Source: Salinisphaera sp. LB1 (GTDB taxonomy: Bacteria; Pseudomonadota; Gammaproteobacteria; Nevskiales; Salinisphaeraceae). From it: 64,000 bases of DNA. The first letter of the stretch is position 1. Each line of letters starts with the position of its first letter. The stretch is taken from positions 1,736,001 to 1,800,000 of the forward strand of contig NZ_CP029488.1 in the NCBI RefSeq assembly GCF_003177035.1, given 5' to 3'. The position numbers were made by a program, and so were the translations under genes. Shown here piece by piece: positions 10,762 to 64,000 of this stretch. Under the pieces are notes generated by a model. It worked only from the letters and a program-made list of their open reading frames with translations. It was not told the origin of the DNA and did not search any database.

Positions 10762-11628
10762 TCAAGCAGGCGTCACGGTCACGCCGTCGCACAACGTGGC
10801 GGCCAGCCAATCGGCCACCACGCGGACACGGGGCAGATGGGCCATGTCCTGATGGGTCAGTAGCCAGAGTTCGCGTCCGGCCGGTGTCATGTCGAGCCGA
10901 TGCAAACCTGCGACATGGTCGCCAATACAGCGCGGCATCAAACAACAGGCGCCGGTCGCCAGGGCCAGTTGCACCATGATGCCGCCGCGGTTGCCGCGTG
11001 CGATGGTTCGCCGATCCGGAAAATGCGCCACCAGCCATTGTTGCTCGGGCTTGTCGATGAATTGTTCATTCAAATCCACCCAGGGTGCGCTGTCGGGGTC
11101 TGTTTCCGTGGCGGTGGCATAGACGCCGTAGGCGAGATCGCCCAGTCGCCGGGCATGAAAGGCGCCGCTTGTCGGGCGAGCCAGGCGCAGGGCAATATCG
11201 GCCTCGCGCTGCGCGACACGGAAATTGCGATTTCCGCCGATCAAGTCGAGCCGTAGACGCGGATGGGCCGACAGCAGGCTGTCGACCCTCGGCCCAACCG
11301 CGTACTCGAGTACGCCGTCCACCCCGGTCACGCGGACCACGCCGGTGATCCGTTCGCGCCGCGGTTCTGCCTGTGTATGAATCAGAGTGGCGGCAAGTTG
11401 ATCTTCCATTGCCCGGGCGGTCTGCAGTAGGGGGTCGGCGCGCAGGGTGGCGCGCAAGCGCTGACCGTCGCGGCGTAGCAGGGAATACCCCAGCTGTGCC
11501 TCGAGCCGCTGGAGGCGGCGTGCCACGGTGGTCTGGTTGACGCCGAGCTCACGGGCGGCGGCGCTCATGGTGCCGCCGCGGCAAACCAGGGCCAGGGTTT
11601 TCAGCCCTTCCCAATCCAATGTGCTCAT
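10762..11628 (-). CDS. LysR-family transcriptional regulator
   Basis: 288 residues: winged HTH at 4-62 (GTMSAAARELGVNQTTVARR), then a substrate-binding-like domain. It resembles the subgroup that often controls a divergently transcribed enzyme gene, here an isochorismatase-type hydrolase. The shared 114-base promoter region holds two palindromes, a 16-base one at 11650 and ATTTG-N5-CAAAT at 11686, that fit LysR binding and auto-control. Confidence 0.93.
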   Translation of the reverse strand: MSTLDWEGLKTLALVCRGGTMSAAARELGVNQTTVARRLQRLEAQLGYSLLRRDGQRLRATLRADPLLQTARAMEDQLAATLIHTQAEPRRERITGVVRVTGVDGVLEYAVGPRVDSLLSAHPRLRLDLIGGNRNFRVAQREADIALRLARPTSGAFHARRLGDLAYGVYATATETDPDSAPWVDLNEQFIDKPEQQWLVAHFPDRRTIARGNRGGIMVQLALATGACCLMPRCIGDHVAGLHRLDMTPAGRELWLLTHQDMAHLPRVRVVADWLAATLCDGVTVTPA

Positions 11629-11649
11629 CGCGGTTCGTCTCCTCTAGCG

Positions 11650-11665
11650 TCTGCGTATACGCAGA
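11650..11665. promoter_or_regulatory. perfect 16-base palindrome in lysR/hydrolase promoter
   Basis: TCTGCGTA followed directly by TACGCAGA, starting 22 bases upstream of the lysR start codon. It is longer and more symmetrical than a typical LysR recognition site, and may serve the LysR protein or a second dimeric regulator. Confidence 0.5.
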
Positions 11666-11685
11666 GCATGCCTGCAAACGAACGG

Positions 11686-11700
11686 ATTTGAATTGCAAAT
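11686..11700. promoter_or_regulatory. LysR box candidate ATTTG-N5-CAAAT
   Basis: Perfect 5-5-5 inverted repeat containing T-N11-A, 43 bases before the hydrolase ATG at 11743. This is close to where an activator-bound LysR box would contact RNA polymerase. Confidence 0.5.
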
Positions 11701-11742
11701 TGGCCGGATCATAATCTGTTTTCCCAATCAAGGAGACGAGAC

Positions 11743-12348
11743 ATGGCTACACACACAATGTTTGAGATTGCCGGCGCAAGCCTGCCCGTCGGGACACCGG
11801 CAACCGCCGCGTTGATCGTGATCGATGCACAGGAGGAATACCGCAAAGGTGCATTGCCGCTATCCGGTCTCGCCCCGGCGCTCGAACACATGGCAGGTCT
11901 GATCGCGCATTGGCGGGCTCATGGCGGTACGCTGATCCATATCGCGCATCATGGGGAGGCCGGCGGCCCCATGTTCGATCCGGACGGGCCGTACGTTTCG
12001 ACCATGCCGGAAGTCGCGCCGCGCGGCGAGGAGCCGGTTGTCGTCAAACACGTACCCAATGCCTTCGGCGGGACCGATCTTCAGGCACGCCTGCAAGAGC
12101 GAGGCGTCGGGCAGGTGGTACTGGCCGGGTTCATGACGCATGTTTGCGTGTCGACCACGGCTCGGATGGCAAACGAGTTGGGCTATCCGGTCACGATCGC
12201 GGAAGATGCGGTGGCGACCCGTGACCTGCCGTGTGCTGACGGCGACGGGATCTTGCCGGCCGCCGAGCTGCAGCGCGCCGAACTGGCGATGTTGTCGGAC
12301 ATCTTCGCCCGGGTGGTCGCCACTGACGCGATAATCGCCGCTTATTAA
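11743..12348 (+). CDS. isochorismatase-type cysteine hydrolase
   Basis: 201 residues of the cysteine hydrolase (isochorismatase-like) superfamily, whose members hydrolyse amides or enol ethers (nicotinamidase, isochorismatase, N-carbamoyl amidases). The presumed triad is visible: Asp in VIDAQEEY, Lys in VVKHVPNAF and Cys in THVCVSTT. AAGGAG 8-13 bases upstream supports the ATG at 11743. The divergent LysR gene likely controls it. The substrate is unknown. Confidence 0.9.
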   Translation: MATHTMFEIAGASLPVGTPATAALIVIDAQEEYRKGALPLSGLAPALEHMAGLIAHWRAHGGTLIHIAHHGEAGGPMFDPDGPYVSTMPEVAPRGEEPVVVKHVPNAFGGTDLQARLQERGVGQVVLAGFMTHVCVSTTARMANELGYPVTIAEDAVATRDLPCADGDGILPAAELQRAELAMLSDIFARVVATDAIIAAY

Positions 12349-48733: not shown

Positions 48734-50442
48734 CGCGTCCAGAAGTTATTGCGTACCAGGTCGACCACTTCGCCCATGCGCCCGGATAGCACGGCCTTGG
48801 TCGAATACAGTGCGGTGGAGGCCACCTGGCCGAATTCGATATGCGGCGGCATCACCAGTTCCATGCGATTGACCTTCACATCGAGAATGCCGGGGCCGTC
48901 GTGGGCGAGCAGTTCGGCCACGGCGCCGTCGAGTTCGTGCTTGGCCTCGATCTTGCGGCCCCACAGGCCGATGGCATGCGCCAGCGCGCCGAAATCCGGG
49001 TTCTTCAATTCGGTATACGCATCCAGCAGGCCGTCGACCTTCTGTTCCAGTTCCACGAACCCGAGCGAGCTGTTGTTGAAGATCACGATCTTGAGCGGGA
49101 TTTCGAACTGGGCCAGCGTGAGCAGATCGCCCATGAGCATGGACAGTCCGCCGTCGCCGCACATGGCGATCACCTGGCGGCCCGGATAGGCCCGGCTGAT
49201 GCCGAGCGCCTGTGGATAGGCATTCGCCATGGTGCCGTGGACCAGGCTCGGCAGGGTCCGGCGCTTGCCGTTGGCCTTGATATGACGCAGACACCACACC
49301 ATCGGGCTGCCGCCGTCGGCGGTGAACACGGCATCGTCGGCCCCGTGCCGATCGAGCGCGAGCGTGAGTTCCTGGGGATGAATCAGGCCGTCGTCCTCCG
49401 ATTCGACCGCCGCGTCATCGAGTGATTCGAGATAGGTCTGGCGGCAGGCGTTGACCCAGTCGCGGTCGTCGTGGGGCTGGATACGTTCGAGGAGCGCTGC
49501 ACAGGTATCGCGCACCGAGCCGATCACGCCGATATCCACCGGGTGGCGCAGGCCGATCTGGCCGGCGGCGATATCGACCTGGATGAGGGTCGCGTCCTCG
49601 GGATAGAACTGGGCCCAGGCGAAACTGCAGCCGAGCAGCAGCAGGGTGTCGCATTCGGAGACCGCACGATAACCGCCGGCCAGCCCGAACACGCCGGTCA
49701 TGCCCACTTCCAGTTCGTTGTCGTATTCGATGAAGTCCTTGGCGCGCGAAGTCCAGGCGATCGGCGCGCCGAGCTTGTCGGCCAGCGCGATCACTTCGTC
49801 GTGGGCGTCGGCGCAGCCGTAGCCGGCATAGATGGAGACTTTCCTGCCCGCGTCGAGCGCGGCGACCACGGCGTCCAGTTCGGACTCGGACGGGCGGATG
49901 ACCGGATCGAAGCGCATCGTGCGCCAGGGCAGCGGATTCTCGGGCCTGGCGGTGAAGATATCGCCCGGCACGATCAACACGGCGACGCCGCCTTCGTTGA
50001 GCGCCTTCTGCGCGGCGATGGCGGTCAGACGCCTGGCATTCTCGGGGCTGGCGACGTATTCGCAGAACACGCTGTACTGCGAATACAGTGGACGCTGGTC
50101 CACGTCCTGCGGAAAGCCGACGCCCATCTCGGCGGTTGCCACCTGCGAGGCGATGAACACCACCGGCGCGCCGTTGCGGTGCGATTCCAGCAAGCCGTTG
50201 ATGAAATGGGTGCTGCCCGGCCCGCAGGTGCCCGCACAGCAGGCCAGCTCGCCGGTCAGATAGGCCTCGCCGCCGGCCGCGAAGCCACCGACTTCCTCGT
50301 GGCGGACGTGGACCCAGTCCATTTCCGAGCGGCGGATGGCATCGGTGAGGTGGTTGATGGTGTCGCCGACCACGCCGTAGCAGCGCTTGGCGCCCGCTTC
50401 AAGCAGGGTGGCGACCATGATTTCTGCGACGTTCTGACTCAT
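48730..50442 (-). CDS. poxB: PoxB-type pyruvate dehydrogenase (ubiquinone)
   Basis: 570 residues from ATG 50442, like E. coli PoxB (572). A peripheral membrane flavoenzyme that oxidises pyruvate to acetate and CO2 and passes electrons to ubiquinone. ThDP fold: the catalytic Glu region HVRHEEVGGFAAGGEAYL (PYR domain), FAD domain, and the Mg/ThDP motif CGDGGLSMLMGDLLTL ... NNSSLGF (PP domain). In E. coli it is an RpoS-dependent stationary-phase enzyme. Here a perfect FNR/ANR-type box lies 126 bases upstream of the start. Confidence 0.93.
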   Translation of the reverse strand: MSQNVAEIMVATLLEAGAKRCYGVVGDTINHLTDAIRRSEMDWVHVRHEEVGGFAAGGEAYLTGELACCAGTCGPGSTHFINGLLESHRNGAPVVFIASQVATAEMGVGFPQDVDQRPLYSQYSVFCEYVASPENARRLTAIAAQKALNEGGVAVLIVPGDIFTARPENPLPWRTMRFDPVIRPSESELDAVVAALDAGRKVSIYAGYGCADAHDEVIALADKLGAPIAWTSRAKDFIEYDNELEVGMTGVFGLAGGYRAVSECDTLLLLGCSFAWAQFYPEDATLIQVDIAAGQIGLRHPVDIGVIGSVRDTCAALLERIQPHDDRDWVNACRQTYLESLDDAAVESEDDGLIHPQELTLALDRHGADDAVFTADGGSPMVWCLRHIKANGKRRTLPSLVHGTMANAYPQALGISRAYPGRQVIAMCGDGGLSMLMGDLLTLAQFEIPLKIVIFNNSSLGFVELEQKVDGLLDAYTELKNPDFGALAHAIGLWGRKIEAKHELDGAVAELLAHDGPGILDVKVNRMELVMPPHIEFGQVASTALYSTKAVLSGRMGEVVDLVRNNFWTR

Positions 50443-52868: not shown

Positions 52869-53410
52869 CTACGTGTTGGCGTGCAGCGCCGCCCATGCGC
52901 TGATCGCGTCTTTGGTAAATGGCCTGAGGTGAATGGCGAACTGGTGCGGCGGGTTGTCGCCCATGGTAGAGACGCCGATGACAAACGGTGCCTTGTTGGG
53001 CGAGCCACGCCGGTATTTGCCGGTACGCTCCCCACCCAGATAGGCACCGTCGATCTCGACCCCACCGGCCAGCTGACGGCGCGATTCACGCTCGTCCATG
53101 GTATGCAGCAGCTTATGCTTGACCCGCCACGCCGCACGATAGCCCACGCCCAGATGAAGAATGAGTTTCAGTACCGAGACGTTGTTCTGGGCCTGGGTTA
53201 GCCGATGCATAGCCAGAAACCATATCGTAAGCGGCAATTTTGGTGGACGCGAAGATTGTGCCGGCCGTTGCCGTCGTCTGATGCCGACAGCGAGGGCACT
53301 GCCAGTGGGCGCTCCGGCCCGTTCGAATGTGATGTGCAAATTACAGCGACCGCCAGATAGGCAAAGCAGCGCGGCCAGCGCGACTAATCAATGCGGCTTC
53401 GCATTCATCC
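52869..53410 (-). pseudogene. IS1595-family transposase relic
   Basis: Two overlapping frames carry parts of an ISXO2-like transposase. In the first are the zinc-finger end and CPRCRHQTTATAGTIFASTK. After a frameshift near 53225 the second continues with PLTIWFLAMHRLTQAQN, LGVGYRAAWRVKHKLL, GGVEIDGAYLGGERTGKYR and NKAPFVIGVSTM. It then ends at AALHANT, before the rest of the catalytic domain. The DDE core Asp (EIDGAYLGG) is present, but the protein is both frameshifted and 3'-truncated. Confidence 0.8.
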
Positions 53411-53690: not shown

Positions 53691-54443
53691 CTAGTGTGCT
53701 GTCCAGCCACCATCGACACGCAGAGTAGTCCCCGTGATACTTCCCAGCCGGTCCGATGCGAGGAAATGCACAGCATTAGCCACATCGCTCAATTTCGGTA
53801 ACGCCTCGGTCAAAAGCTTGCGGTTGATAAGTTCTCGAAACTCGTCGCGGGCAAGCGTCTCACGGGTCATTTCTGTCTCCACGAAAGTCGGAGCCACGCT
53901 ATTGATCTGTACTCCCGTGCCGGCCAGATCGACAGCCACAGCTTTGATCAGTCCTTCGACGGCGTGCTTGCTAGCGCAATAGGCAGTGCGCTCCGGGAGG
54001 CCGACGAAGCCAGCCTGTGAGGATATCACCACGATTTTTCCGGTACATCCTGCCTCAATCATCGTTTTCGCCACCGCTTGTGTGACCATGAAAACCGATC
54101 TGAGGTTCACGCTCATAATCGCATCGAAATCCTCGATCTCGAACTCGAGAAATGGTCGAGGGCGATTCAAGCCTGCGTTATTTACGAGCACGTCGATACT
54201 TCCAACCTCTTTTAATAACGCTGCAATGGACGAGGGCGTATCAAGGTTGGCAACAATGGGATCGATTGAACCTGGAAATGAACCAGGTTTGGCCGCGAAC
54301 TCCACCGCGCGTTTCTCGCTACGCGTCGTCACGAATACCTGGTCGCCCTCATCCGCAAACCGATGTGCGCAGGCGAGACCAATGCCGCTCAGCCCGCCCG
54401 TAATGAGGACTATTCGGGGTTCGGAATTCGATCGATAGGTCAT
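53691..54443 (-). CDS. SDR-family dehydrogenase (distal member of the catabolic cluster)
   Basis: 250 residues from ATG 54443 (ATG 54464 is also possible). Classical short-chain dehydrogenase: TGGLSGIGLA for NAD(P), VNNAGLN, catalytic Ser in VVISSQAG, YCASK with Tyr and Lys, and the C-terminal TGTTLRVDGG. It resembles 3-oxoacyl reductase/sorbitol-type enzymes acting on hydroxyl groups. It is 67 bases after the LacI-type regulator on the same strand and is followed by a hairpin, so it is probably the last gene of the cluster. Confidence 0.9.
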   Translation of the reverse strand: MTYRSNSEPRIVLITGGLSGIGLACAHRFADEGDQVFVTTRSEKRAVEFAAKPGSFPGSIDPIVANLDTPSSIAALLKEVGSIDVLVNNAGLNRPRPFLEFEIEDFDAIMSVNLRSVFMVTQAVAKTMIEAGCTGKIVVISSQAGFVGLPERTAYCASKHAVEGLIKAVAVDLAGTGVQINSVAPTFVETEMTRETLARDEFRELINRKLLTEALPKLSDVANAVHFLASDRLGSITGTTLRVDGGWTAH

Positions 54444-54510
54444 GATGAGGCTGCCTTCCCCCATAGCGTTTACGGTTGGCGCCGCACTATCAGCGCGCTT
54501 TTCTCGCCCT

Positions 54511-55536
54511 TCACATCACCTCGCTAACCGTGTGTCGGCTAACGATGTGCCCAGGAATATTGATTCGCGTGCCGGCCGAAAAACCGGCCCGAGACATTTC
54601 GCTTATAACATCGGCGGTCGCAGCGATCATTTCTTCGACGGGTTGTCGATACGTCGTCAATTGGTAAGAAGCCCACCCAGCCATCGCGATGTCGTCGAAC
54701 CCGATCACCGAAAGCTCGTCGGGTACGCCGATTCCTTGCTCTCGCATGGCGTCGAGTACACCCAGTGCCAGGACGTCATTAGCGCAGAATACGCCATCGA
54801 TGTCGCCACGGTGCCTGTCAATGAGCAGGCGGCCCGCAGCGAGCCCGGCATCATGAGTGAAACGCTGCGCCTGTATGGACTTGGGTTTTGATAGGCCGCG
54901 TCGCCGACAAGCCCGGATGAACCCGATTTCGCGATCGCGATTGGTTGTTGCATCGAGATCACCGGCTACATAAGCTAGCCGGGTTAGCTGACGGTCGACG
55001 AGATAGTTCGCTACTGCCTCACCGCCCGCTTCGTTATCGCAGGTAACGGCAATCGATGAGTTGCCGGGAACATACCGATTGAACAGGACTACTGCGATTC
55101 CGGCGGCAACTGCGGAATCGATCGCAGCCGAGGACATGGTGGCGGCGAGAGCAACCAGTACGTCCGGCTGATATCGAAACGCGCTGTGGAAAGTATCGTC
55201 GAGGGTCTTCGCACGATGTCGGCAAAACAACATGACGCTGAAGCCATTGTACTCAAGAGCCTCGCTCAGCCCAGTCAATACCTCGGGGTAAAAAGGGTTC
55301 GCCAGATCGGAGACAACGATGGCCACGATGCGGCTGCGGTTCGTTTTCAGCGAACGCGCATGCGGATTCGGTTGATAACCCAGTTGCGCCGCCTTGCGCA
55401 GTACCCGGCGCCGGGTTGAATCAGCGATCACCGAATTGGGCGTGAAGGCCCGGGACACGGTCGAAATCGACACGCCAAGCGCCTCGGCAACCTGGCGTGC
55501 GACCACGCTTGCCGACGAGCCGTGATCGACACTCAC
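54511..55536 (-). CDS. LacI-family transcriptional regulator
   Basis: 341 residues, GTG start. DNA-binding HTH plus hinge (VARQVAEALGVSISTVSRAFTPNSVIADSTRRRVLRKAAQLGYQPN, residues 12-57) and a sugar-binding-type effector domain (IVSDLANPFYPEVLTGLSEALE; GVFCANDVLALGVLDAM; VIGFDDIAMAGW). It sits inside the catabolic cluster between the HpsN-like and SDR genes. A LacI-type operator, TGCAAA-CC-TTTGCA, upstream of the binding-protein gene at 63853 is the obvious target. The effector is probably the imported compound or a first metabolite. Confidence 0.93.
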   Translation of the reverse strand: MSVDHGSSASVVARQVAEALGVSISTVSRAFTPNSVIADSTRRRVLRKAAQLGYQPNPHARSLKTNRSRIVAIVVSDLANPFYPEVLTGLSEALEYNGFSVMLFCRHRAKTLDDTFHSAFRYQPDVLVALAATMSSAAIDSAVAAGIAVVLFNRYVPGNSSIAVTCDNEAGGEAVANYLVDRQLTRLAYVAGDLDATTNRDREIGFIRACRRRGLSKPKSIQAQRFTHDAGLAAGRLLIDRHRGDIDGVFCANDVLALGVLDAMREQGIGVPDELSVIGFDDIAMAGWASYQLTTYRQPVEEMIAATADVISEMSRAGFSAGTRINIPGHIVSRHTVSEVM

Positions 55537-55584
55537 GCGGCAAGCCTTCGGTTCGCCTGCAGGCCACGCAGCTGTGGCTCAGTC

Positions 55585-56904
55585 TCAGTCCGTGTCACGC
55601 GGCGCGGCCGTATAGGGTTCGACATCGCGATTGCCATAGCGGCGCACTCTTGCATTCGCCTGTTCTGCATGTCCCCGGAATCCTTCGAGCATACAGAGTC
55701 GGGAGGCGACCGCACCAACCCGCGCCGAGGCTTCGTCCGTTGTGATCCGTTGATAGGTATGGGTCTTGATGAACTTGCCAACCCACAGACCGCCGGTATA
55801 GCGCCCGGCACGCCGGGTCGGCAGGGTGTGGTTGGTGCCGATGACCTTGTCCCCAAACGCCACGTTGGTGCGCGGCCCCACGAACAGCGCGCCGTAAGAG
55901 TTCAGGTTGTCGGCAAAGAAATCCGGCTCGCGGGTCATGACCTGGACATGCTCGAAGGCCAGTTCCTCGGCCTGTTCGAGCATCTCGTCGCGATCGCGAC
56001 AGACGATCACCTGGCCGTAATCGCGCCACGCCTGGGCTGCTACCTCGGCGGTCGGCAGCACCTTGAGCTGTTCTTCGACAGCCGCGAGCACCTCGTTGGC
56101 CAGAGTCTCCGAGTCGGTGATCAGCACCGCCGGCGACGTCGGGCCGTGCTCGGCCTGGCCCAGCAGATCGATCGCGCAGAGCTCGGCGTCCACGCTGTCG
56201 TCGGCGATGACCATGGTTTCTGTCGGCCCGGCAAGCAGATCGATGCCCACCTGACCGAACAGCTGGCGCTTGGCTTCGGCCACAAACATATTGCCCGGCC
56301 CAACCAGCATGTCCACGGGCTCGATCGATTCAGTGCCCAGCGCCATGGCCGCCATCGCCTGGACGCCGCCGAGCACGAGTATTTCGTCGGCTCCGGCATA
56401 ATGCATGGCCGCCACGATCGCCGGATGCGGCAGACCCTCGAACGGCGGGGCTGCAGCCACCACTCGCTTGACCCCGGCCACCTTCGCCGTAAGCACGCTC
56501 ATATGGGCCGAAGCAATCATCGGGTATTTGCCGCCCGGGATGTAACAGCCGACCGCGCTGACCGGGATATTGCGATGCCCCAGAATCACGCCGGGCTGGG
56601 TCTCGACCTCCAGATCCTTGAGGCAAGCTTTCTGCTGTTCCGCGAAATAGCGGATCTGGGACTGGGCGTAGCGAATGTCTTCCAGATCGCGTTCATCGAC
56701 CTTTGCGATCGCATCGGCGATTTCGTCCTCGGTCATCCGGAAGCTGTCCGGCGACCAGTTGTCGAAATGCTCGGACAACTCGCGTGCCGCCTCGTCGCCG
56801 CGCGCTTCCACATCCGCCAGTATGTCGGTAACCGTCTGTCGGACCTTTTGGTCGGCCGCCTTGATCTGGCCCTGATCGAATCCGGATTTCAGAATTTTTG
56901 CCAT
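55585..56904 (-). CDS. hpsN: HpsN-type dehydrogenase (histidinol-dehydrogenase family)
   Basis: 439 residues; AAGGA 7 bases upstream of the ATG. It belongs to the HisD superfamily but looks like the 2,3-dihydroxypropane-1-sulfonate 3-dehydrogenase (HpsN) branch: [52 protein letters not shown] with zinc-ligand Gln and His, the catalytic EH in FEHVQVMT, and the [21 protein letters not shown] block. HisD-type enzymes perform two successive NAD-linked oxidations of a primary alcohol to a carboxylate. No his gene is nearby and the context is catabolic. Substrate specificity for a sulfonate is a family inference; no sulfolyase is in the window. Confidence 0.85.
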
Positions 56905-56951
56905 GATGTTGTCCTTACTTGGCGTACGCGAACAGTGGCGGCCACTGTGCG

Positions 56952-57746
56952 TCAGGGGGTTCGACAGGTCAGCCCGCCGTCGACGACGAGGGACTGCCCG
57001 GTGATATAGCGCGCTTCATCGCTGGCCAGATAAAGCGCGGCATGGGCGACATCCCAGGCATCGCCCATGCGGCCCATGGGCACCTGGGCGCGGCGCTGCG
57101 CAACGAAATGATCGTATTCGCCGGCGGCGTATTTGTCGGCCAGCCGTCGTACCAGCGGCGTATCGATCAGCCCGGGCACCACGCAGTTCAGACGTACGCC
57201 GCGTCCGGAATAGATCACGGCCGTCGTGCTCGTCATCTGCATGAGCGCGGCCTTGGCCGAAGCGTAGCCGACCTGATCCTTGCCGATATAGCGCAGACCT
57301 GCCACCGACGATACGCTGACGATACTGCCGCTGCCGGCCGCTTCCATGATCGGCAACACGTGATGACAGCAGTGATAGGCGCTGTCGAGATTGGTCGCGA
57401 TCTGTTCATGCCAGACCGCGGGTGATAGCTCGGCCGGGCCGCCGGGCTCCGAGCGCCCAACGTTATTGACGAGGATATCCAGCCGCCCGAATGCCGCCAT
57501 GCACTTGGAAACGGCTTCGCCGACCTGGGCCTCATCGGTGACATCGCAGACGTAGGGCACGATCGTGCCGCCTTCCTGGCGCACGATCGCGGCCGTGCGT
57601 TCGAGTGCCTGCGCATCGCGGTCGAGCCCGAACACACATGCGCCCTGGCGCGCAAACAGCGTGGCGATGGCCTGGCCGTTGCCCCAGCCACCGCCGGCGT
57701 TGCCGACGCCGGTGACGAAGGCGACCTTGTCTTCCAGACTCAGCAT
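56952..57746 (-). CDS. SDR-family dehydrogenase
   Basis: 264 residues. [15 protein letters not shown] is an expanded glycine-rich cofactor motif. The rest is classical: VNNVGRS, catalytic Ser in [22 protein letters not shown] and [11 protein letters not shown]. Its ATG lies inside the end of the preceding carboxymuconolactone-decarboxylase-like gene (7-base overlap). It may oxidise a secondary alcohol in the same pathway as the HpsN-like enzyme, 47 bases downstream. Confidence 0.9.
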
Positions 57747-58276
57747 GGGTCGTCGGGCTGGTCGCTGCTCTGGACATCGAGAGCGACCAGAAACCGCGAG
57801 ACCATGTTGTAGGCGCCGATCGTGGCCACCAGCTCGACCACGCCGCGCTCGTCGAAATATTCACGCACGCGCGACAGGGTCGCTTCCGCGACCCGGACCT
57901 CTCGGGTCATGGCATCGGTCAACGCAAGGACCGCGCTTTGTCTGGCGTCGAAAAACGAGGACGGGTCCGGCTGCGCAAGCTGATCGAGCTGGGCTTCGGT
58001 CAGGCCGGCAGCCAGCGCGATCGGGCGGTGCTGATCGGCTTCGTAGCTCGCCTGATTGAGTACGGCGATGCGCATGATCACGAGCTCGCGCGTGCGATCG
58101 TCCAGATCGGCATGCTGGCGAATGGCCGTGAGAAATCCCAGCCACCCTTCGGCCACCGGCGGGCTGTGCAGCAGCATCCGGTACAGATGCAGCACGCTGC
58201 CGCGCTGCGCCGTCATTCGCTCGACCAGCGGTTTCGTTGCATCGGCCTCGATATCGGCGTAGGGAATTCGCGCCAT
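57740..58276 (-). CDS. carboxymuconolactone decarboxylase / AhpD-like protein
   Basis: 178 residues. AAGGAAC precedes the ATG. Helical CMD fold: LVERMTAQRGSVLHLYRMLLHSPPVAEGW, then DLDDRTRELVIMRIAVLNQASYEADQH. The Cys-x-x-Cys of AhpD-type peroxidase partners is absent (NQASYEADQH in its place), so redox activity is unlikely. In catabolic operons such proteins often act as decarboxylases or lactonases, or have unknown roles. Located between two SDR genes with overlap on one side. Confidence 0.85.
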   Translation of the reverse strand: MARIPYADIEADATKPLVERMTAQRGSVLHLYRMLLHSPPVAEGWLGFLTAIRQHADLDDRTRELVIMRIAVLNQASYEADQHRPIALAAGLTEAQLDQLAQPDPSSFFDARQSAVLALTDAMTREVRVAEATLSRVREYFDERGVVELVATIGAYNMVSRFLVALDVQSSDQPDDPC

Positions 58277-58305
58277 CGGTGATCGTTCCTTGCAGCATTT
58301 GATGG

Positions 58306-59079
58306 TTACATCGAGGTGGTCAGGCCGCCGTCGACGAAAAGATTCTGGCCGCTGACGAAATCCGAAGCCGGCGCACAGAGATAAAGCAGCGTGCCGATCA
58401 GATCGTCCGGCTCGCCCCAGCGCCTGGCCGGGGTTCGTTCGCGCAGCCAGCTATCGAACTCCGGGTCTTCCCAGAGCCCACGCGTGATGTCGGTGCGATA
58501 GAAGCCCGGCGACAGACAGTTGACCTGAATGCCGTCGCCGGCCAGCTCGCAGGACAGCGATTTCGCCAGCATTGCCACGGCTGCCTTGCTGGCCGCATAG
58601 GGTCCGACCGTCTTACGCGGCAGCGCGCTGTGGCTCGAGCCGACCAGCACGATCTTACCGGAGCCACGGGCCCGCATGGCCGGCGCCAGCGCGCGGCAGA
58701 CATGGAAAACGCCGGACAGGTTGGTATCGATCAGCGTCTGCCAGTCGGCGGCCGGGTAATCGGCCAGTTCGCCGCGCTTTTGGAACCCGGCGTTGTTGAT
58801 GAGGATATCGGGCGCACCGGCTCGGTCGACCCGTTCGCTCAGCGCGGCCTCGATCGCGTCGGCCTGCGACACATCGAAGGCACAGGCCTCGACTTCCGTT
58901 CCCGTGGCCCGGGCCAGTCTTTCGGCTGCCTGTTCGGCCGAGGCGCGGGTGCGACCGTGCACGGTCACCCGGACGCCGGCTTCAGCCAGGCCCCGGGCCA
59001 TGGCGAAGCCGAGCCCCCGCGTCGAGCCGGTCACGAGCGCGCTGCGTGTCGATACATCGAACAGCGACGAAATGCTCAT
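58306..59079 (-). CDS. SDR-family dehydrogenase, gluconate-5-dehydrogenase-like
   Basis: 257 residues from ATG 59079 (GAGGTGG upstream); the frame continues to 59151 inside the transporter gene. The opening FDVSTRSALVTGSTRGLG is typical of gluconate 5-dehydrogenases (IdnO/Gno group), followed by INNAGFQKRG, the catalytic Ser in VGSSHS, YAASK and SGQNLFVDGGLT. It probably interconverts a keto/hydroxy group of a polyol acid using NAD(P). It starts 38 bases after the transporter gene in the operon. Confidence 0.9.
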   Translation of the reverse strand: MSISSLFDVSTRSALVTGSTRGLGFAMARGLAEAGVRVTVHGRTRASAEQAAERLARATGTEVEACAFDVSQADAIEAALSERVDRAGAPDILINNAGFQKRGELADYPAADWQTLIDTNLSGVFHVCRALAPAMRARGSGKIVLVGSSHSALPRKTVGPYAASKAAVAMLAKSLSCELAGDGIQVNCLSPGFYRTDITRGLWEDPEFDSWLRERTPARRWGEPDDLIGTLLYLCAPASDFVSGQNLFVDGGLTTSM

Positions 59080-59116
59080 GGCCACCTCGAACGGTGATGC
59101 CTGCTCGGGTATGCCC

Positions 59117-61603
59117 TCATACGCCGAGCAACTTGCCGAGCCGCTCGTCACCGAGGCTCAGCTCCCGGGTCGGGGCCGTTAACGCAATCGAACCGTTGAC
59201 CATGACATAGGCACGGCTTGCGATCTGCAGCGCCAGATCCACCCGTTGCTCGATCAGCAGGATCGCGACCTGTCCGCGTAGCCGCTCGACTGCCCGCATC
59301 ACTTCAGCGACAATCGACGGGGCGAGCCCTTCGAATGGTTCGTCGAGCAGCAACAGCCGGGTCGGCGCCATCAGAGCGCGCGCGATCGCGAGCATCTGTT
59401 GCTCGCCCCCGCTCAGATTCCCACCCGCCGACGAAGCCAGGGTGCGTAGCTTGGGAAACAGCTCGTAAGCCTCCTCCAGCGACCATCCGCCACTGCGTTG
59501 GGCCACTCGTAGATTGTCGGCCACCGTCAGGTTGGGAAATATTCGCCGCCCCTGCGGCACGATGGAAATCCCCAGCCGATTGACGGCATGGGCCGGCAGT
59601 TTGGTGATGTCCAGACCGTCGAAGCGGATCTGCCCATCGTCCACGGGCAGAATGCCGATCAGGGTCGACAACGTCGTGGTCTTGCCCACCCCGTTTCGAC
59701 CCAGAAGGGCCACGGTTTCGCCGACGTCGACTTCCATGGACAGCCCGCTGAGCACCCGGCTGCCATGGTAGCCCGACGCCACGTTGTCGAGGCTGATCAG
59801 CGTCTCGCCGCGCTCGGTGGCCTCTGGCAAGGCCGTGCGCTCGCGATCGTCTGCATGCCCCTCGCCAAGATAGGCATGAACAACGTCCGGGTGGTTGACT
59901 ACTTCGTCAGGCGGGCCATCGGCGATGAGCTTGCCTTGATGGAAAACGCTCAAACGGTTGGACAGCGCCACCACGCGGTCGATGTCGTGTTCGATCAACA
60001 GAATGGTGTGCTGCGCAGCCAGACGACGGATCAGCTGGCTGACCGTCTCGCGCTCGGCATCCGCCAAGCCGGCCAGCGGCTCGTCGAGCAGGAGCATGCT
60101 GGGCTGGCCGGCGAGCGCGATCGCGATGTCCAGCAACCTTTTTTCGCCGTGCGGCAGGTTCATCACGATATCGCCGGCCTTGGCATCGAGCCCGACTTCA
60201 TCGAGCGCCTGCCAGGCCAGCGCATTCACTTCGTCCAGCCCGTAGGCTCGGGCCCAGAGCGAAGCCCGCCGTCCATGCTTGGCCTGCGCAGCGACCCGAA
60301 CCGCCTCGAACACCGTGAGGTTGTCGGGCACGGAAACCACCTGAAACGAACGCACCAGCCCTTGCATGGCACGCTTGTTCGTGGGCAGGCGCGTGATGTC
60401 GCGGCCGGCAAACAAAATACGGCCTTCATCGGGCGCCAGCAGGCCGCTGAGCATGTTGAAGAACGTGGTCTTGCCGGCGCCGTTGGGCCCGAGAACACCG
60501 TGGATGGATCCGGCTTCCACGCTGAGATCGATGCGATCGGCGGTGACGATCTTCCCGAACCGTTTGGACAGCCCCTGTACCTCGAGGATGGTGCCGGACA
60601 ACGGCGGCGCGGTGTCCCTGCCGGCCGCCGCAGAGGTCGGCCGCGGCGGCAGCCGGTCCCGCGTCAGCGCCCAACGGTTATGACCGGCGAGCCGGCTGAC
60701 GAGCCCCGAAAGCCCTTCCGGCGAGAGCAGCACCACCGCGATCATCAACGCGCCGAAGATCAGCCACCAGTGCTCGGTGACCACGCTGAGCTGATCTTCG
60801 AGGTTGATGTAGAGAATCGCACCCCAGAGCGGGCCGAGGAAATGATGCATGCCGCCCAGGACCGTCATCATCACCGGGTCGCCGGCATGCTGCCAGTTCA
60901 TGTTCTCGGCATAGGCGCCTCGAATCAGGAACGTCAGCAGCGCTCCGGCCAGGCCCACCAGGGCTGACGACAGCACGAAGGCGCCGAGCTTGTAACGCTG
61001 CGGGTTGTAGCCCATCGACAGCGCGCGCTGTTCGTCGTCGCGGATCACCTGCAGGACACGCCCGAACGGCGAATGCACGACCCGCAGCATCGCGGCCGCT
61101 GCCAGCCACACGATCACCGCCGTCAATATGTAGTAGGCCAGCGGATCGGCGAATCCCGGTCGGGTCACGCCCTGCAGCCCATTCTCGCCACCAGTCACGT
61201 TCGTCCAATGAAAAGCGATCTCGTAGAACAGCTGGGTGAAGGCCAGTGTGAGCAGCGCGAAGTAGATGCCGCGGCGGCGCAGGATGAGCAGCCCGACAAA
61301 CACGCTCATTACAGCCGTCGCAAGAACGGCGGCAACGATGCTGAAAATGGGGTTCGCCCAGACATGCAAAGCCGTCAGACCGGCGACATAGCTGGCGAAC
61401 CCGAAGAAGAGCGAGGAGCCGAACGAGACCAGACCGACATAGCCGAGCAGCAGATTGAAGCCCAGGGCATACAACGCATACAGCGCGACCTGGGTCGCCA
61501 GGCTCAGGGTCGAGCCGAGCATGGGCATGATGATCGGCAGCAGCGCCAGGGCCACGGCCATGACGGTCAGCGGATGGGTGGCATAGGAACGCAGTGCATT
61601 CAT
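59117..61603 (-). CDS. fused LivM-LivG-LivF ABC transporter protein
   Basis: One 828-residue polypeptide with three units normally separate. A LivM-type permease (1-315) has about nine helices and the GENGLQGVTRP and ALSMGYNPQRYKL loops. A LivG-type ATPase (about 335-590) has Walker A GPNGAGKTT, signature LPHGEKRLL and DEPLAGL. A LivF-type ATPase (about 605-828) has Walker A GRNGVGKTT, the LSGGEQQ signature and DEPFEGLAP. The start ATG 61603 overlaps the livH stop (ATGA). It imports the operon's substrate with LivH and the binding protein. LivM-LivG fusions are known; a triple fusion is unusual. Confidence 0.92.
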   Translation of the reverse strand: MNALRSYATHPLTVMAVALALLPIIMPMLGSTLSLATQVALYALYALGFNLLLGYVGLVSFGSSLFFGFASYVAGLTALHVWANPIFSIVAAVLATAVMSVFVGLLILRRRGIYFALLTLAFTQLFYEIAFHWTNVTGGENGLQGVTRPGFADPLAYYILTAVIVWLAAAAMLRVVHSPFGRVLQVIRDDEQRALSMGYNPQRYKLGAFVLSSALVGLAGALLTFLIRGAYAENMNWQHAGDPVMMTVLGGMHHFLGPLWGAILYINLEDQLSVVTEHWWLIFGALMIAVVLLSPEGLSGLVSRLAGHNRWALTRDRLPPRPTSAAAGRDTAPPLSGTILEVQGLSKRFGKIVTADRIDLSVEAGSIHGVLGPNGAGKTTFFNMLSGLLAPDEGRILFAGRDITRLPTNKRAMQGLVRSFQVVSVPDNLTVFEAVRVAAQAKHGRRASLWARAYGLDEVNALAWQALDEVGLDAKAGDIVMNLPHGEKRLLDIAIALAGQPSMLLLDEPLAGLADAERETVSQLIRRLAAQHTILLIEHDIDRVVALSNRLSVFHQGKLIADGPPDEVVNHPDVVHAYLGEGHADDRERTALPEATERGETLISLDNVASGYHGSRVLSGLSMEVDVGETVALLGRNGVGKTTTLSTLIGILPVDDGQIRFDGLDITKLPAHAVNRLGISIVPQGRRIFPNLTVADNLRVAQRSGGWSLEEAYELFPKLRTLASSAGGNLSGGEQQMLAIARALMAPTRLLLLDEPFEGLAPSIVAEVMRAVERLRGQVAILLIEQRVDLALQIASRAYVMVNGSIALTAPTRELSLGDERLGKLLGV

Positions 61604-62475
61604 TCGAAGCGCTCCCACGTTTCACCGAACAGGCCACGCGGGCGGACCAGCAGGATCGCCACCATCAGTAGATACATCACCGCACTCGATGCCGCCGGCC
61701 AGAACTGGATCGCCAGGGCTACCGAGATACCGACCAGCAGCCCACTCACGATCGCGCCCCGTAGACTGCCGAGACCGCCGATCGTCACCACCACGAACGC
61801 CGGCATGATCGCCTGTTCGCTGATCGACGGCACCACGCTCCAGAGCGGAGCTGCCAGCACGCCGGCGATACCCGCAAGGGCCGTGCCCAGGCCGAACACC
61901 AGCGTAAAAACCCGCTTCAGGTTCACGCCGAGCATGTTGACCATTTCACCGTCGCGGCTACCGGCCCGGATGATCCGCCCGAAGCGGGTCTTCTCCAGCA
62001 GCAGCCAAATGCCGATCAGCAACAATACGGTGATCCCCAGAACAGCGAGCCGATACTGGGTCACGAACACCGGCCCGTAGTGCACGAATCCCGATAGGAA
62101 GTCCGGTGCGTCATACGGATGGCCGATCGAGCCCCAGATGGTGCGGATCGCTTCTTCGATGAACAGCGCCAGCCCGAACGTCAGCAATAGACTGAGCAAG
62201 GGTTCCTTGTCGTACAGCGGGCGCAAAAGCAATCGCTCGGCCACCACGCCCACTGCAAAAACACAGACCGGCGCCAGAAACAGCACCCCAACGTCGCCCA
62301 CATACGGCCTGAGGGTCCATGCGAAATAAGCCCCCAGCGCGAAGAACGCGCCGTGGGCAAAGTTTACCAGACCTAGCATGCCGAAGATGATGGACAGGCC
62401 GACCGCAATTAGTACGAACAGAAAGCCGAGGACCAGTCCATTGACGAGCTGCGAAGTCAGCAGCATCGCATCCAT
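61600..62475 (-). CDS. livH: LivH-type ABC permease
   Basis: 291 residues, eight or so helices. Family phrases: NGLVLGFLFVLIAVGLSIIFGMLGLVNFAHGAFFALGAY, TFGLALFIEEAIRTIWG and ITIGGLGSLRGAIVSGLLVG-type ending. Permease partner of the LivM half in the fused protein. The stop overlaps the next ATG by four bases. Confidence 0.93.
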   Translation of the reverse strand: MDAMLLTSQLVNGLVLGFLFVLIAVGLSIIFGMLGLVNFAHGAFFALGAYFAWTLRPYVGDVGVLFLAPVCVFAVGVVAERLLLRPLYDKEPLLSLLLTFGLALFIEEAIRTIWGSIGHPYDAPDFLSGFVHYGPVFVTQYRLAVLGITVLLLIGIWLLLEKTRFGRIIRAGSRDGEMVNMLGVNLKRVFTLVFGLGTALAGIAGVLAAPLWSVVPSISEQAIMPAFVVVTIGGLGSLRGAIVSGLLVGISVALAIQFWPAASSAVMYLLMVAILLVRPRGLFGETWERFE

Positions 62476-62486
62476 GCCGAGCCCCT

Positions 62487-63734
62487 CTAGTTCGAGTCCA
62501 TATGGCAGTTGCTTTCCGATTTGTTCGGATAGATCGATTCCAGAGGCTTGCCCGCAGCGGGCTGGACGCTGTCGATCTCGAAGTAGTTATATTGATCGGG
62601 GATGGTCTTGCGCACCTCGGCGACCAGCGTCGGCTGGATGAGCTGGTGATCCCACTTGCGGAAATAGATCGGACGCTGCTTGTAGCCCTCGAATTTATGG
62701 CTTTCCAGGAAGCTGATGAGCTTGCCCGGATCGGTCGAGCCGGTCTGCTTGATTGCGGTGAGCAGGGCGCTCATGCCGAAGTAGTCCTGCCAGGCTTCCG
62801 ACTCGGGCGGCTTGCCGTATTTATCCTCGAACGCCTTGGCGAACTGCTTGCTTTTCTCAGTGTTCTGGTCGCCGGTGTAATTCCAGATCTTGGGATACAC
62901 GCCGGTCGCCGCATCCTTGCCGGCCGCCCACAGGTCGGTATCGTTGGCCACCAGCGAGGACACCGGGATCTTGCCGGTCAAACCCATCTGGTGGAACTGC
63001 TTCAGGAAGTTCGTCAGGTCGCTGCCACCGATGCCGAGAAACAACGCATCGGGGTTCTTGGATACCACCTTGAGAATGTACGAGCTGAAATCCGACGTGC
63101 CGAGCGGGGTTTCGTCGGCCCCCACCACCTTGCCGCCGTGCGCATCGAGCAGGCCTTTCATCTGCTTGTAGCCGTCGATGCCCCACGCATAGGAAGCCGA
63201 GATGAAGTACCAGTTCTTGCCGTTTTTTGCCAACGACGGATAAATGGTGCGCGTGGTCGTATAGTTGGGAAGATCGACCCGGAAGGTGTAATGATTACAC
63301 TTTGCGCCGGTGATCTCTGTCGCATTGGGGCCGGTCGCGATGAGCGGCGTTTTGCTTCGCTCGGCTATCGGCATCACGGCCAGTATGTCGCCGCTGGAAA
63401 TACCGCCGGTCACGCCGACCACATGGTCCTGCTCGATCAGCTTGTGCATGTTCTGCTGGGTCGTCTGCGGACCGTTCTCGTCGTACCAGACGATCTTGAT
63501 CGGGCGGCCATTGATCTTTCCGCCGAAATCCTGTAATGCGATCATCGCGCCCTGATGACCCTGGGCACCTTGCACGGCGTAGGTCCCGGATTTGGGCAGC
63601 AATAGCCCGATACGGATTGGATTTGCGGCATGGGCCGTTAAAGCCCCCAGAAGCGAGCCGCAGACAGTCATCGCCAGTAACGCACGGCGGCTGCGCGCCC
63701 CTCGGCGCTTCGGTTTATGGATAGTGTTCGTCAT
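62487..63734 (-). CDS. LIV-type substrate-binding protein
   Basis: 415 residues; GGAGGAG lies 5-7 bases before the ATG. A signal peptide with a long basic n-region (1-37, ending LTAHAA) is followed by a type I periplasmic-binding protein: IRIGLLLPKSGTYAVQGAQG, GGISSGDILAVMPIAERSKTPLIATGPNA, NYTGDQNTEKSKQF. It belongs to the Peripla_BP_6 family, whose members bind amino acids, amides, aromatic acids and other small organics. It is the first gene of the operon; the ligand cannot be read from the sequence. Confidence 0.92.
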   Translation of the reverse strand: MTNTIHKPKRRGARSRRALLAMTVCGSLLGALTAHAANPIRIGLLLPKSGTYAVQGAQGHQGAMIALQDFGGKINGRPIKIVWYDENGPQTTQQNMHKLIEQDHVVGVTGGISSGDILAVMPIAERSKTPLIATGPNATEITGAKCNHYTFRVDLPNYTTTRTIYPSLAKNGKNWYFISASYAWGIDGYKQMKGLLDAHGGKVVGADETPLGTSDFSSYILKVVSKNPDALFLGIGGSDLTNFLKQFHQMGLTGKIPVSSLVANDTDLWAAGKDAATGVYPKIWNYTGDQNTEKSKQFAKAFEDKYGKPPESEAWQDYFGMSALLTAIKQTGSTDPGKLISFLESHKFEGYKQRPIYFRKWDHQLIQPTLVAEVRKTIPDQYNYFEIDSVQPAAGKPLESIYPNKSESNCHMDSN

Positions 63735-64000
63735 GGTTTTCTCCTCCGCCGGAAAGCCTTATGGCTATCTGCTTGTTTTTTTAATTTCCTAAAAAGCCGT
63801 GTAAACAGCTTTGAGATGGTGTTACCAGAGGGTTATCTATAGAGCAACAATATGCAAACCTTTGCACCAGCAAAGCGCTGCAGGTGGAACGAAGGAGATC
63901 GATCCAATTAATTTCAAATAAGTCATTTTATTTCATTGCGTTATGCCAAGCGTGCTCGGGCGAAGTCTGTCCAAAGTCGGCTCAGCGTGCGCGCAACAAC
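63735..64000. other. promoter region of the catabolic operon
   Basis: No gene. It is AT-rich between 63770 and 63960. It contains the LacI-type operator at 63853-63866 and, 1-2 bases farther upstream on the minus strand, a weaker half-matching site (AGCAAAGCGCTGCA, 63869-63882). Possible -10 boxes (such as TATAGAT near 63835-63841) lie between the operator and the gene. Confidence 0.5.
63853..63866. promoter_or_regulatory. LacI-family operator TGCAAA-CC-TTTGCA
   Basis: Perfect 6-2-6 palindrome with the TGCAAA/TTTGCA half-sites typical of LacI/PurR-type proteins, 119 bases upstream of the binding-protein start. The LacI-type protein encoded at 54511-55536 is the likely partner. Confidence 0.65.

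Follow-up and report, generated by a model that had tools for sequence, protein, structure and literature searches.

A nine-gene cluster on a 64,000-nt stretch of the Salinisphaera sp. LB1 genome (GCF_003177035.1, NZ_CP029488.1, positions 1,736,001-1,800,000; hereafter the window) was analysed. The cluster occupies positions 53691-63734, with all nine open reading frames (ORFs) on the minus strand, and includes a dehydrogenase of the HisD/HpsN superfamily, here called HisDL. Our analysis showed that this catabolic system is real and partly conserved and that its central enzyme belongs to an apparently uncharacterised clade of the HisD superfamily. On balance, we favour the view that the cluster and a divergent operon just beyond the window work together as a single catabolic system, whose substrate would be a small hydroxylated compound of about C4-C6 without a sulfonate group (polyol-, diol- or deoxysugar-like). 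This view draws on gene content, the clade and residues of HisDL, synteny with related clusters and the conservation of a candidate operator site.

An initial annotation of the same DNA had described a catabolic cluster with an HpsN-like dehydrogenase and a possible sulfonated substrate. Its catabolic character and the kinship with HpsN were upheld, the sulfonate was not, and the beta-keto-acid half of the pathway was found to lie outside the window.

The HisDL clade

Comparison with solved structures placed HisDL nearest to HpsN (8v35, E 9e-119; 8v37; 9cp9), followed by 8wwe, also a dihydroxypropanesulfonate (DHPS) dehydrogenase, before any HisD. The match to Cupriavidus pinatubonensis HpsN scored 400 bits. 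A tree of 63 rows (HisDL 39, HisD 11, HpsN six and a third group seven) revealed four strongly supported groups, with HisDL and HpsN as separate groups (100/98 and 100/99), HisD as a clade of its own (100/100) and HisDL as sister to HpsN (98/95); the HpsN rows in this tree are few and long branches were flagged, including L129 in HpsN and L091 in the third group. The protein is thus nearer to HpsN than to HisD, as first proposed, and does not group with true HisD, but it does not fall inside HpsN either and forms its own clade. HisDL appears to be a separate, apparently uncharacterised branch of the superfamily that is labelled histidinol dehydrogenase in databases.

The residue alignment comprised 96 rows from 93 loci, of which 93 rows represent HisDL and three are second copies (L046, L059, L076) from another clade. 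The catalytic residues Glu318/His319, the zinc ligands Gln248/His251/Asp352/His411 and Lys353 of C. pinatubonensis HpsN (PDB 8V35) are kept in HisDL as E318, H319, Q250, H253, D352, H412 and K353 (numbering of the window protein), and position 353 is Tyr in 11/11 HisD rows. According to the available text of the HpsN study, His126, in the motif G-R-Y-A/S-H, distinguishes HpsN from HisD and binds sulfonate and zinc (PMC11382572). HisDL has G-K-Y-P-M at this site, with Met in place of His126. Among the 93 HisDL rows this position is Met in 73, Leu in 19 and Ile in one, while His126 is kept in all six HpsN-clade rows. Furthermore, all 93 HisDL rows have His at window position 134, which is not His in any of the six HpsN, 11 HisD and seven other-clade rows of the tree set. 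HisDL therefore resembles HpsN in its catalytic, zinc and Lys353 residues, and C. pinatubonensis hpsN also adjoins SDR and LacI genes; it differs in the Met for His126, in His134, in its separate clade and in a cluster without sulfonate genes. Retention of Lys353 together with loss of His126 suggests that the substrate carries some polar or anionic group, such as a hydroxyl or carboxylate, in place of a sulfonate.

A third HisD-like clade (L091-L094, L046, L059, L076; seven tree rows), apart from HisD, HpsN and HisDL, carries the motif G-R-Y/F-P-L. Matches of 45-49% occur in 5/13 same-genus genomes, four of which were placed in the tree.

Gene content of the cluster and the divergent operon

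Families were assigned to the cluster ORFs with NCBIfam and Pfam, and confirmed those of the initial annotation; before about 48 kb, coverage of the window consisted of the ORF listing. The nine genes, in cluster order, and the candidate operator are as follows.

62487..63734, minus strand: LIV/HAAT-type substrate-binding protein (Peripla_BP_6; Pfam PF13458, 282 bits)
61600..62475, minus strand: LivH-type permease (PF02653; congener copy 89% identical)
59117..61603, minus strand: LivM-LivG-LivF triple fusion (LivMGF), permease plus two ATPases (PF02653 and two PF00005 stretches), with the more likely start
58306..59079, minus strand: SDR3, a gluconate-5-dehydrogenase-like short-chain dehydrogenase/reductase (SDR) (NCBIfam PRK07523/PRK08085, both under cut-off), with the probable start
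57740..58276, minus strand: carboxymuconolactone decarboxylase (CMD)-family protein without CxxC (PF02627, 50 bits)
56952..57746, minus strand: SDR2 (PF13561/PF00106; congener copy 74% identical)
55585..56904, minus strand: HisDL, HisD/HpsN-superfamily dehydrogenase (PF00815, 458 bits)
54511..55536, minus strand: LacI-family regulator (PF00356/PF13377)
53691..54464, minus strand: SDR1 (PF00106), the most frequent SDR type at HisDL loci
63853..63866, no strand: LacI-type palindrome TGCAAACCTTTGCA with six-base arms, in the divergent promoter region between the binding-protein gene and LacI2

Gaps between the listed ORFs are, in order, 11, -19, -35, 29, -7, 47, 48 and 46 bases, in agreement with the earlier description of mostly overlapping or closely spaced genes on one strand. 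LivMGF was listed as one 833-codon ORF beginning at 61618; its start context makes the ATG at 61603, which overlaps the LivH stop, the more likely true start. Counted from the translation, SDR3 probably starts at 59079 and not at the listed 59151; its YxxxK and GxxxGxG motifs are present.

The importer has the components of the LIV/HAAT type, namely a Peripla_BP_6 protein, two BPD_transp_2 permeases (LivH and the one in the fusion), two ATPase domains and a LivG-type C-terminal domain. The nearest solved structure to the binding protein is 3i09, a branched-chain-type binding protein (E 1.4e-42), and the structure search returned generic LIV-type proteins. AhpD-type peroxidases carry a CxxC active-site motif; this motif is absent from the CMD-like protein, which has a single Cys in its whole length. 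Scans of promoters (one found, 3.1 expected) and terminators (11 found, 7.7 expected, sd 2.8) were uninformative. At the downstream end of the cluster, an ORF at 52869-53339 resembles a transposase remnant by eye, and Pfam at 1e-5 assigned it no family.

Past the window end, the divergent operon comprises LacI2, SDR4, a lambda-crystallin-type dehydrogenase (HADH), a beta-keto acid cleavage enzyme (BKACE), CoA transferase A and B and a thiolase. These genes were read in locus L118, where window position equals L118 position plus 59000. The initial gene inventory was therefore correct inside the window but incomplete, as a second LacI and a fourth SDR lie just beyond it. The BKACE (DUF849, group NF053538) scored 530 against a 430-bit cut-off over positions 1-310 of 310 (L118 8123-9055, outside the window), and the NCBIfam model that it passes carries a 3,5-dioxohexanoate name. 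The nearest solved relatives of HADH are lambda-crystallins, which act on free 3-hydroxy acids.

The thiolase region extends over L118 10416-12720 (69416-71720 on the window scale) and contains a transposase gene at 10826-11881 with a DDE_3 domain. By eye, the ends of this IS630-type element are inverted-repeat-like and flanked by TA; an inverted-repeat search on the element gave no result. A second BKACE-family gene of the genome, which is a single 4.14-Mb contig, lies at 2782476-2783348, about 0.98 Mb off (L141).

Related clusters and the candidate operator

The gene-order search proposed in the initial annotation found that a congener, Paracoccus denitrificans and Pseudogemmobacter share the importer, HADH, BKACE, HisDL and two SDRs. 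In the congener, LacI2, SDR4, HADH and BKACE diverge from the binding protein, LivH, LivMGF, CMD, SDR2, HisDL, LacI and SDR1; its contig ends past BKACE, and SDR3 was not found in its cluster. P. denitrificans plasmid NZ_CP141053 carries SDR4, followed by the binding protein, LivH, LivMGF, HADH, BKACE, HisDL and SDR1, and Pseudogemmobacter has the same genes split into two divergent runs. Full-length LivMGF fusions are present in both (39% and 41%, respectively), and neither locus has homologues of LacI, CMD, SDR2, SDR3, CoA transferase or thiolase as best matches.

The BKACE of the P. denitrificans cluster is identical to PDB 8RIO (BKACE15) across the 307 residues compared, and the divergent-operon BKACE is 65% identical to it. 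In P. denitrificans, BKACE and HisDL are neighbours within a single run and have no CMD, CoA transferase or thiolase gene beside them, whereas here the genes lie in divergent operons. The accessible part of the report on BKACE15 presents its crystal structure and its part in a synthetic CO2-reduction cycle, and describes its physiological role as unknown (PMC11961710).

A Comamonadaceae plasmid carries HADH, a 75% BKACE, a LIV importer, an SDR and an aldehyde dehydrogenase, with no HisDL in the stretch read. An aldehyde dehydrogenase in place of HisDL is expected if HisDL makes an acid. Importer fusions also occur without HADH or BKACE in Rhizobium sp. Q54, Skermanella and Rhizobium sullae, and the idea of a pathway-specific importer was not borne out, since LivM-G-F fusions appear in such contexts.

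A genome-collection scan confirmed at least 577 relatives of HisDL, and the best 80 of these, with 10 plasmid loci and one congener, formed a 91-locus set. Best-match counts in this set were 70 for SDR1-type, 46 for LacI, 19 for HADH, none for CoA transferase and one for CMD; family clustering of 93 loci gave SDR in 69, LacI in 48, HADH in 21, LivMGF in seven and BKACE in four. Single calls behind these counts may err, as unannotated loci were called with a greedy script, and the gene tables of the plasmid records are incomplete. HADH directly adjoins HisDL in 8/93 loci and also in Roseomonas. The four BKACE-bearing loci are our own, P. denitrificans, Pseudogemmobacter and L029, to which the congener is added; in L029 the BKACE lies about 7.6 kb from HisDL on the opposite strand. 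The single CMD-like gene is that of the congener (64% identity).

Among 398 sampled Pseudomonadota genomes, 31 (our own included) have HisDL-type matches (E up to 1e-150), and 1/13 same-genus genomes (G002) has an ortholog, 86% identical. BKACE matches (E up to 1e-90) occur in 13 of these 32 genomes and lie by position within 20 kb of HisDL in three (G000, G002, G151). The surroundings of other HisDL genes vary widely. Often they hold a PotABCD-type importer together with genes for SnoaL-like, cupin, MetE-like, alpha/beta-hydrolase and RraA proteins (L045, L053, L055, L059, L066, L073, L074, L077 and similar loci), a further type of pathway to which our analysis assigned no role; elsewhere a sugar-type importer is combined with LacI, HADH, SDR and a protein of the metallo-beta-lactamase fold. 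Near loci of the latter kind are PdxA (L018) and a PF07005/PF17042 protein (L028), a family that we take to be the four-carbon-acid-sugar kinases. HisDL-type genes are also plasmid-borne (L110, L112, L119): the plasmids of Klebsiella michiganensis and Salmonella Milwaukee were both typed as conjugative, and the Geobacillus plasmid record is 11 kb long.

The genome holds a single copy of TGCAAASSTTTGCA, at 63853-63866, which the congener has retained amid diverged flanking bases. On window evidence alone the site is weak, as 12/100 shuffles matched at up to one mismatch. The sequence TGCAAACGTTTGCA precedes the importer operon in the HisDL cluster of L012, where one-mismatch forms lie next to it, and a one-mismatch form precedes the HisDL operon of L028; both clusters have sugar-type importers. 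A perfect match lies about 5 kb from HisDL in L070, and L115, L109, L027 and L138 have one two-mismatch site each, while a search allowing two mismatches gave no site in L018, L020, L021, L034, L040, L056 and L122. The recognition helix VSISTVSRAF is the same in the window LacI and in the LacI adjoining HisDL in L012. The shared helix and site suggest a common type of regulator.

Proposed pathway, alternatives and significance

HisD-type enzymes carry out a four-electron oxidation of an alcohol to an acid. If the cluster and the divergent operon are one system, the order of reactions, the substrate, the cofactors and the regulation would be as follows. The LIV-type importer with its LivM-G-F fusion would take up the compound, which is probably non-sulfonated and polyol- or deoxysugar-like. 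HisDL, as a zinc- and NAD-dependent four-electron enzyme, would convert a terminal alcohol or aldehyde to a carboxylate, giving a 3-hydroxy acid, and the SDRs may set or oxidise secondary hydroxyls. The lambda-crystallin-type HADH would form the beta-keto acid, which BKACE, with acetyl-CoA, would cleave to acetoacetate and a shortened acyl-CoA; the CoA transferase and thiolase would recover acetyl-CoA. The LacI-type regulators are predicted to act on the 63853-63866 site.

Parts of this scheme have precedents. In Clostridium scatologenes, the available text reports experimental evidence that a HADH-like enzyme and a BKACE convert a free 3-hydroxy acid to acetoacetate and acetoacetyl-CoA, in a cluster that also holds CoA transferase and thiolase homologues (PMC10470551). 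This phloroglucinol pathway (TfD-TAL-CoA transferase-thiolase) uses the same enzyme families past the 3-hydroxy acid; it differs in its PF04199 cyclohydrolase, absent here, and the part of the paper available names no HisD-like enzyme or LIV importer. Likewise, the accessible text on Pseudomonas simiae describes a route for 2-deoxyribonate in which a dehydrogenase, a BKACE and an acetyl-CoA acetyltransferase act on a 2-deoxy sugar acid (PMC6365646); its dehydrogenase is an SDR, its transporters are of the MFS type, and that text names no HisD-like enzyme. The combination of genes found here, which the initial annotation read as an uncharacterised pathway, was not found in the literature searched, in which few subscription journals were covered. 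Within the same coverage, no paper contained both 'histidinol dehydrogenase' and '3-keto-5-aminohexanoate cleavage', and a search on 1,3-butanediol returned nothing relevant.

Several observations weigh against a single system of this kind. BKACE occurs in only 4/93 HisDL loci plus the congener, CoA transferase in 0/91 and CMD in 1/91 other HisDL loci. The importers and downstream genes that accompany HisDL elsewhere are of many kinds, so its substrate may vary among clusters. The CMD, SDR2 and SDR3 proteins have no assigned step. HADH passes a 3-hydroxyacyl-CoA dehydrogenase model (422 vs 347 bits), and its substrate could be a CoA ester; the C. scatologenes enzyme, according to the text available, also bore a 3-hydroxyacyl-CoA dehydrogenase annotation before testing (PMC10470551). 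The thiolase is split by an IS630-type transposase gene. The window LivMGF is 51% identical to the R. sullae fusion vs 39-42% to those of the P. denitrificans-type clusters, and P. denitrificans and Pseudogemmobacter have no operator-like site at up to two mismatches. Finally, Microvirga ossetica (L134) and Ponticoccus alexandrii (L135) carry SDR4, a LIV importer with LivMGF, HADH and BKACE without HisDL in the stretches read; HisDL is thus dispensable there, and these sets are a simpler form of the system.

More broadly, and tentatively, HisDL may represent one more enzyme type within the HisD superfamily. In a four-electron oxidation it would convert polyols, diols or 2-deoxysugars without a sulfonate group directly to (deoxy)aldonic or 3-hydroxy acids. 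Such a type would be widespread in Pseudomonadota and annotated as histidine biosynthesis, with one branch feeding HADH and BKACE.

The two operons could also serve two adjacent, separate functions, with SDR4, HADH, BKACE and the LIV importer used for an imported hydroxy acid and with HisDL, the SDRs, CMD and LacI used for another compound. The HisDL-free sets of Microvirga and Ponticoccus, the 89/93 HisDL loci without BKACE and the two different LacI genes fit such a division, whereas the HADH genes that directly adjoin HisDL, the single run of importer, HADH, BKACE, HisDL and SDR in P. denitrificans and the fact that our HisDL follows the importer genes on their strand argue for one system. 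We regard separate functions as rather unlikely.

It is improbable that the genes encode a known beta-keto-acid cleavage pathway, namely phloroglucinol (triacetate) or carnitine degradation. The HADH, BKACE, CoA transferase and thiolase set is that of phloroglucinol degradation and the BKACE model is named for 3,5-dioxohexanoate, but no PF04199 (Cyclase-family) gene is present in the genome, which means that a dihydrophloroglucinol cyclohydrolase of that family is lacking, and phloroglucinol was set aside. Carnitine was set aside on the HADH scores, as the matches to carnitine dehydrogenase models reach 179-192 bits with cut-offs of 414-592. To our knowledge, neither pathway uses a HisD-like enzyme. 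Pantoate or pantothenate catabolism, considered on account of an amidase adjoining HisDL in Martelella, was dropped, as the literature searched offered nothing relevant and BKACE would be unexplained.

Degradation of a sulfonate (DHPS or cysteinolate), with HisDL as an HpsN variant and desulfonation encoded elsewhere in the genome, has little probability. HpsN as nearest solved relative and sister clade, and the retention of Lys353, a sulfonate contact in HpsN, speak for it, and sulfolyases do not always adjoin hpsN according to the available text (PMC11382572). The replacement of His126 in 93/93 HisDL rows speaks against it, and neither the cluster nor the divergent operon holds a sulfonate gene; as the initial annotation had noted, the cluster has no desulfonating enzyme. 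Six Xsc matches in the genome include none over the cut-off (the one at window 48898-50427 scores 193.7 vs 676.4 bits), in a search that gives matches in 14/14 control genomes as well and over the cut-off in none. The only PF04295 (SuyB-superfamily) protein of the genome shares 58% identity with an annotated altronate dehydratase and 32% with SuyB. Identity between SDR3 and C. pinatubonensis HpsO is 36%, too low for a claim of orthology, and HpsP has no match among the cluster and divergent-operon proteins at 1e-3. By comparison, a UxaA or D-cysteine-desulfhydrase gene lies close by in 4/6 HpsN-clade control loci. Flanking genes in the six control loci include UxaA-type genes next to annotated hpsN/hpsO (one locus, C. 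pinatubonensis), sulfate-exporter genes (two loci) and DHPS-annotated TRAP genes (one), and one locus has no sulfonate-named gene. Sulfonate use by the cluster is thus unlikely, and was rejected as the leading explanation on residue, tree, neighbourhood and genome search, with one ambiguous CuyA/D-cysteine-desulfhydrase homologue (44%) left at 2.75 Mb, 0.95 Mb off.

Three of the HpsN-clade loci (L129, L131, L132) adjoin D-cysteine desulfhydrase, aminotransferase and racemase genes, with no HpsO or HpsP annotated in the stretch; these perhaps represent a cysteinolate route.

There is next to no chance that HisDL serves histidine biosynthesis as a second histidinol dehydrogenase, a reading that was rejected because, although HisDL scores over the TIGR00069 hisD cut-off, so does C. 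pinatubonensis HpsN, and another PF00815 gene of the genome groups with the separate true HisD clade, whose position 353 is Tyr and not Lys.

If the proposed system is correct, a common family now annotated as histidinol dehydrogenase would have to be seen as a carbon-catabolism enzyme with a testable signature, namely no His126 and the presence of His134. Low HpsN score thresholds in gene counts may take in the HisDL clade; one survey, in the part of its text available, gives a threshold of 167 bits against Ruegeria pomeroyi HpsN (PMC11131964). For BKACE15, the genomic context would also give a lead to the pathway that it serves in nature and to its physiological role.

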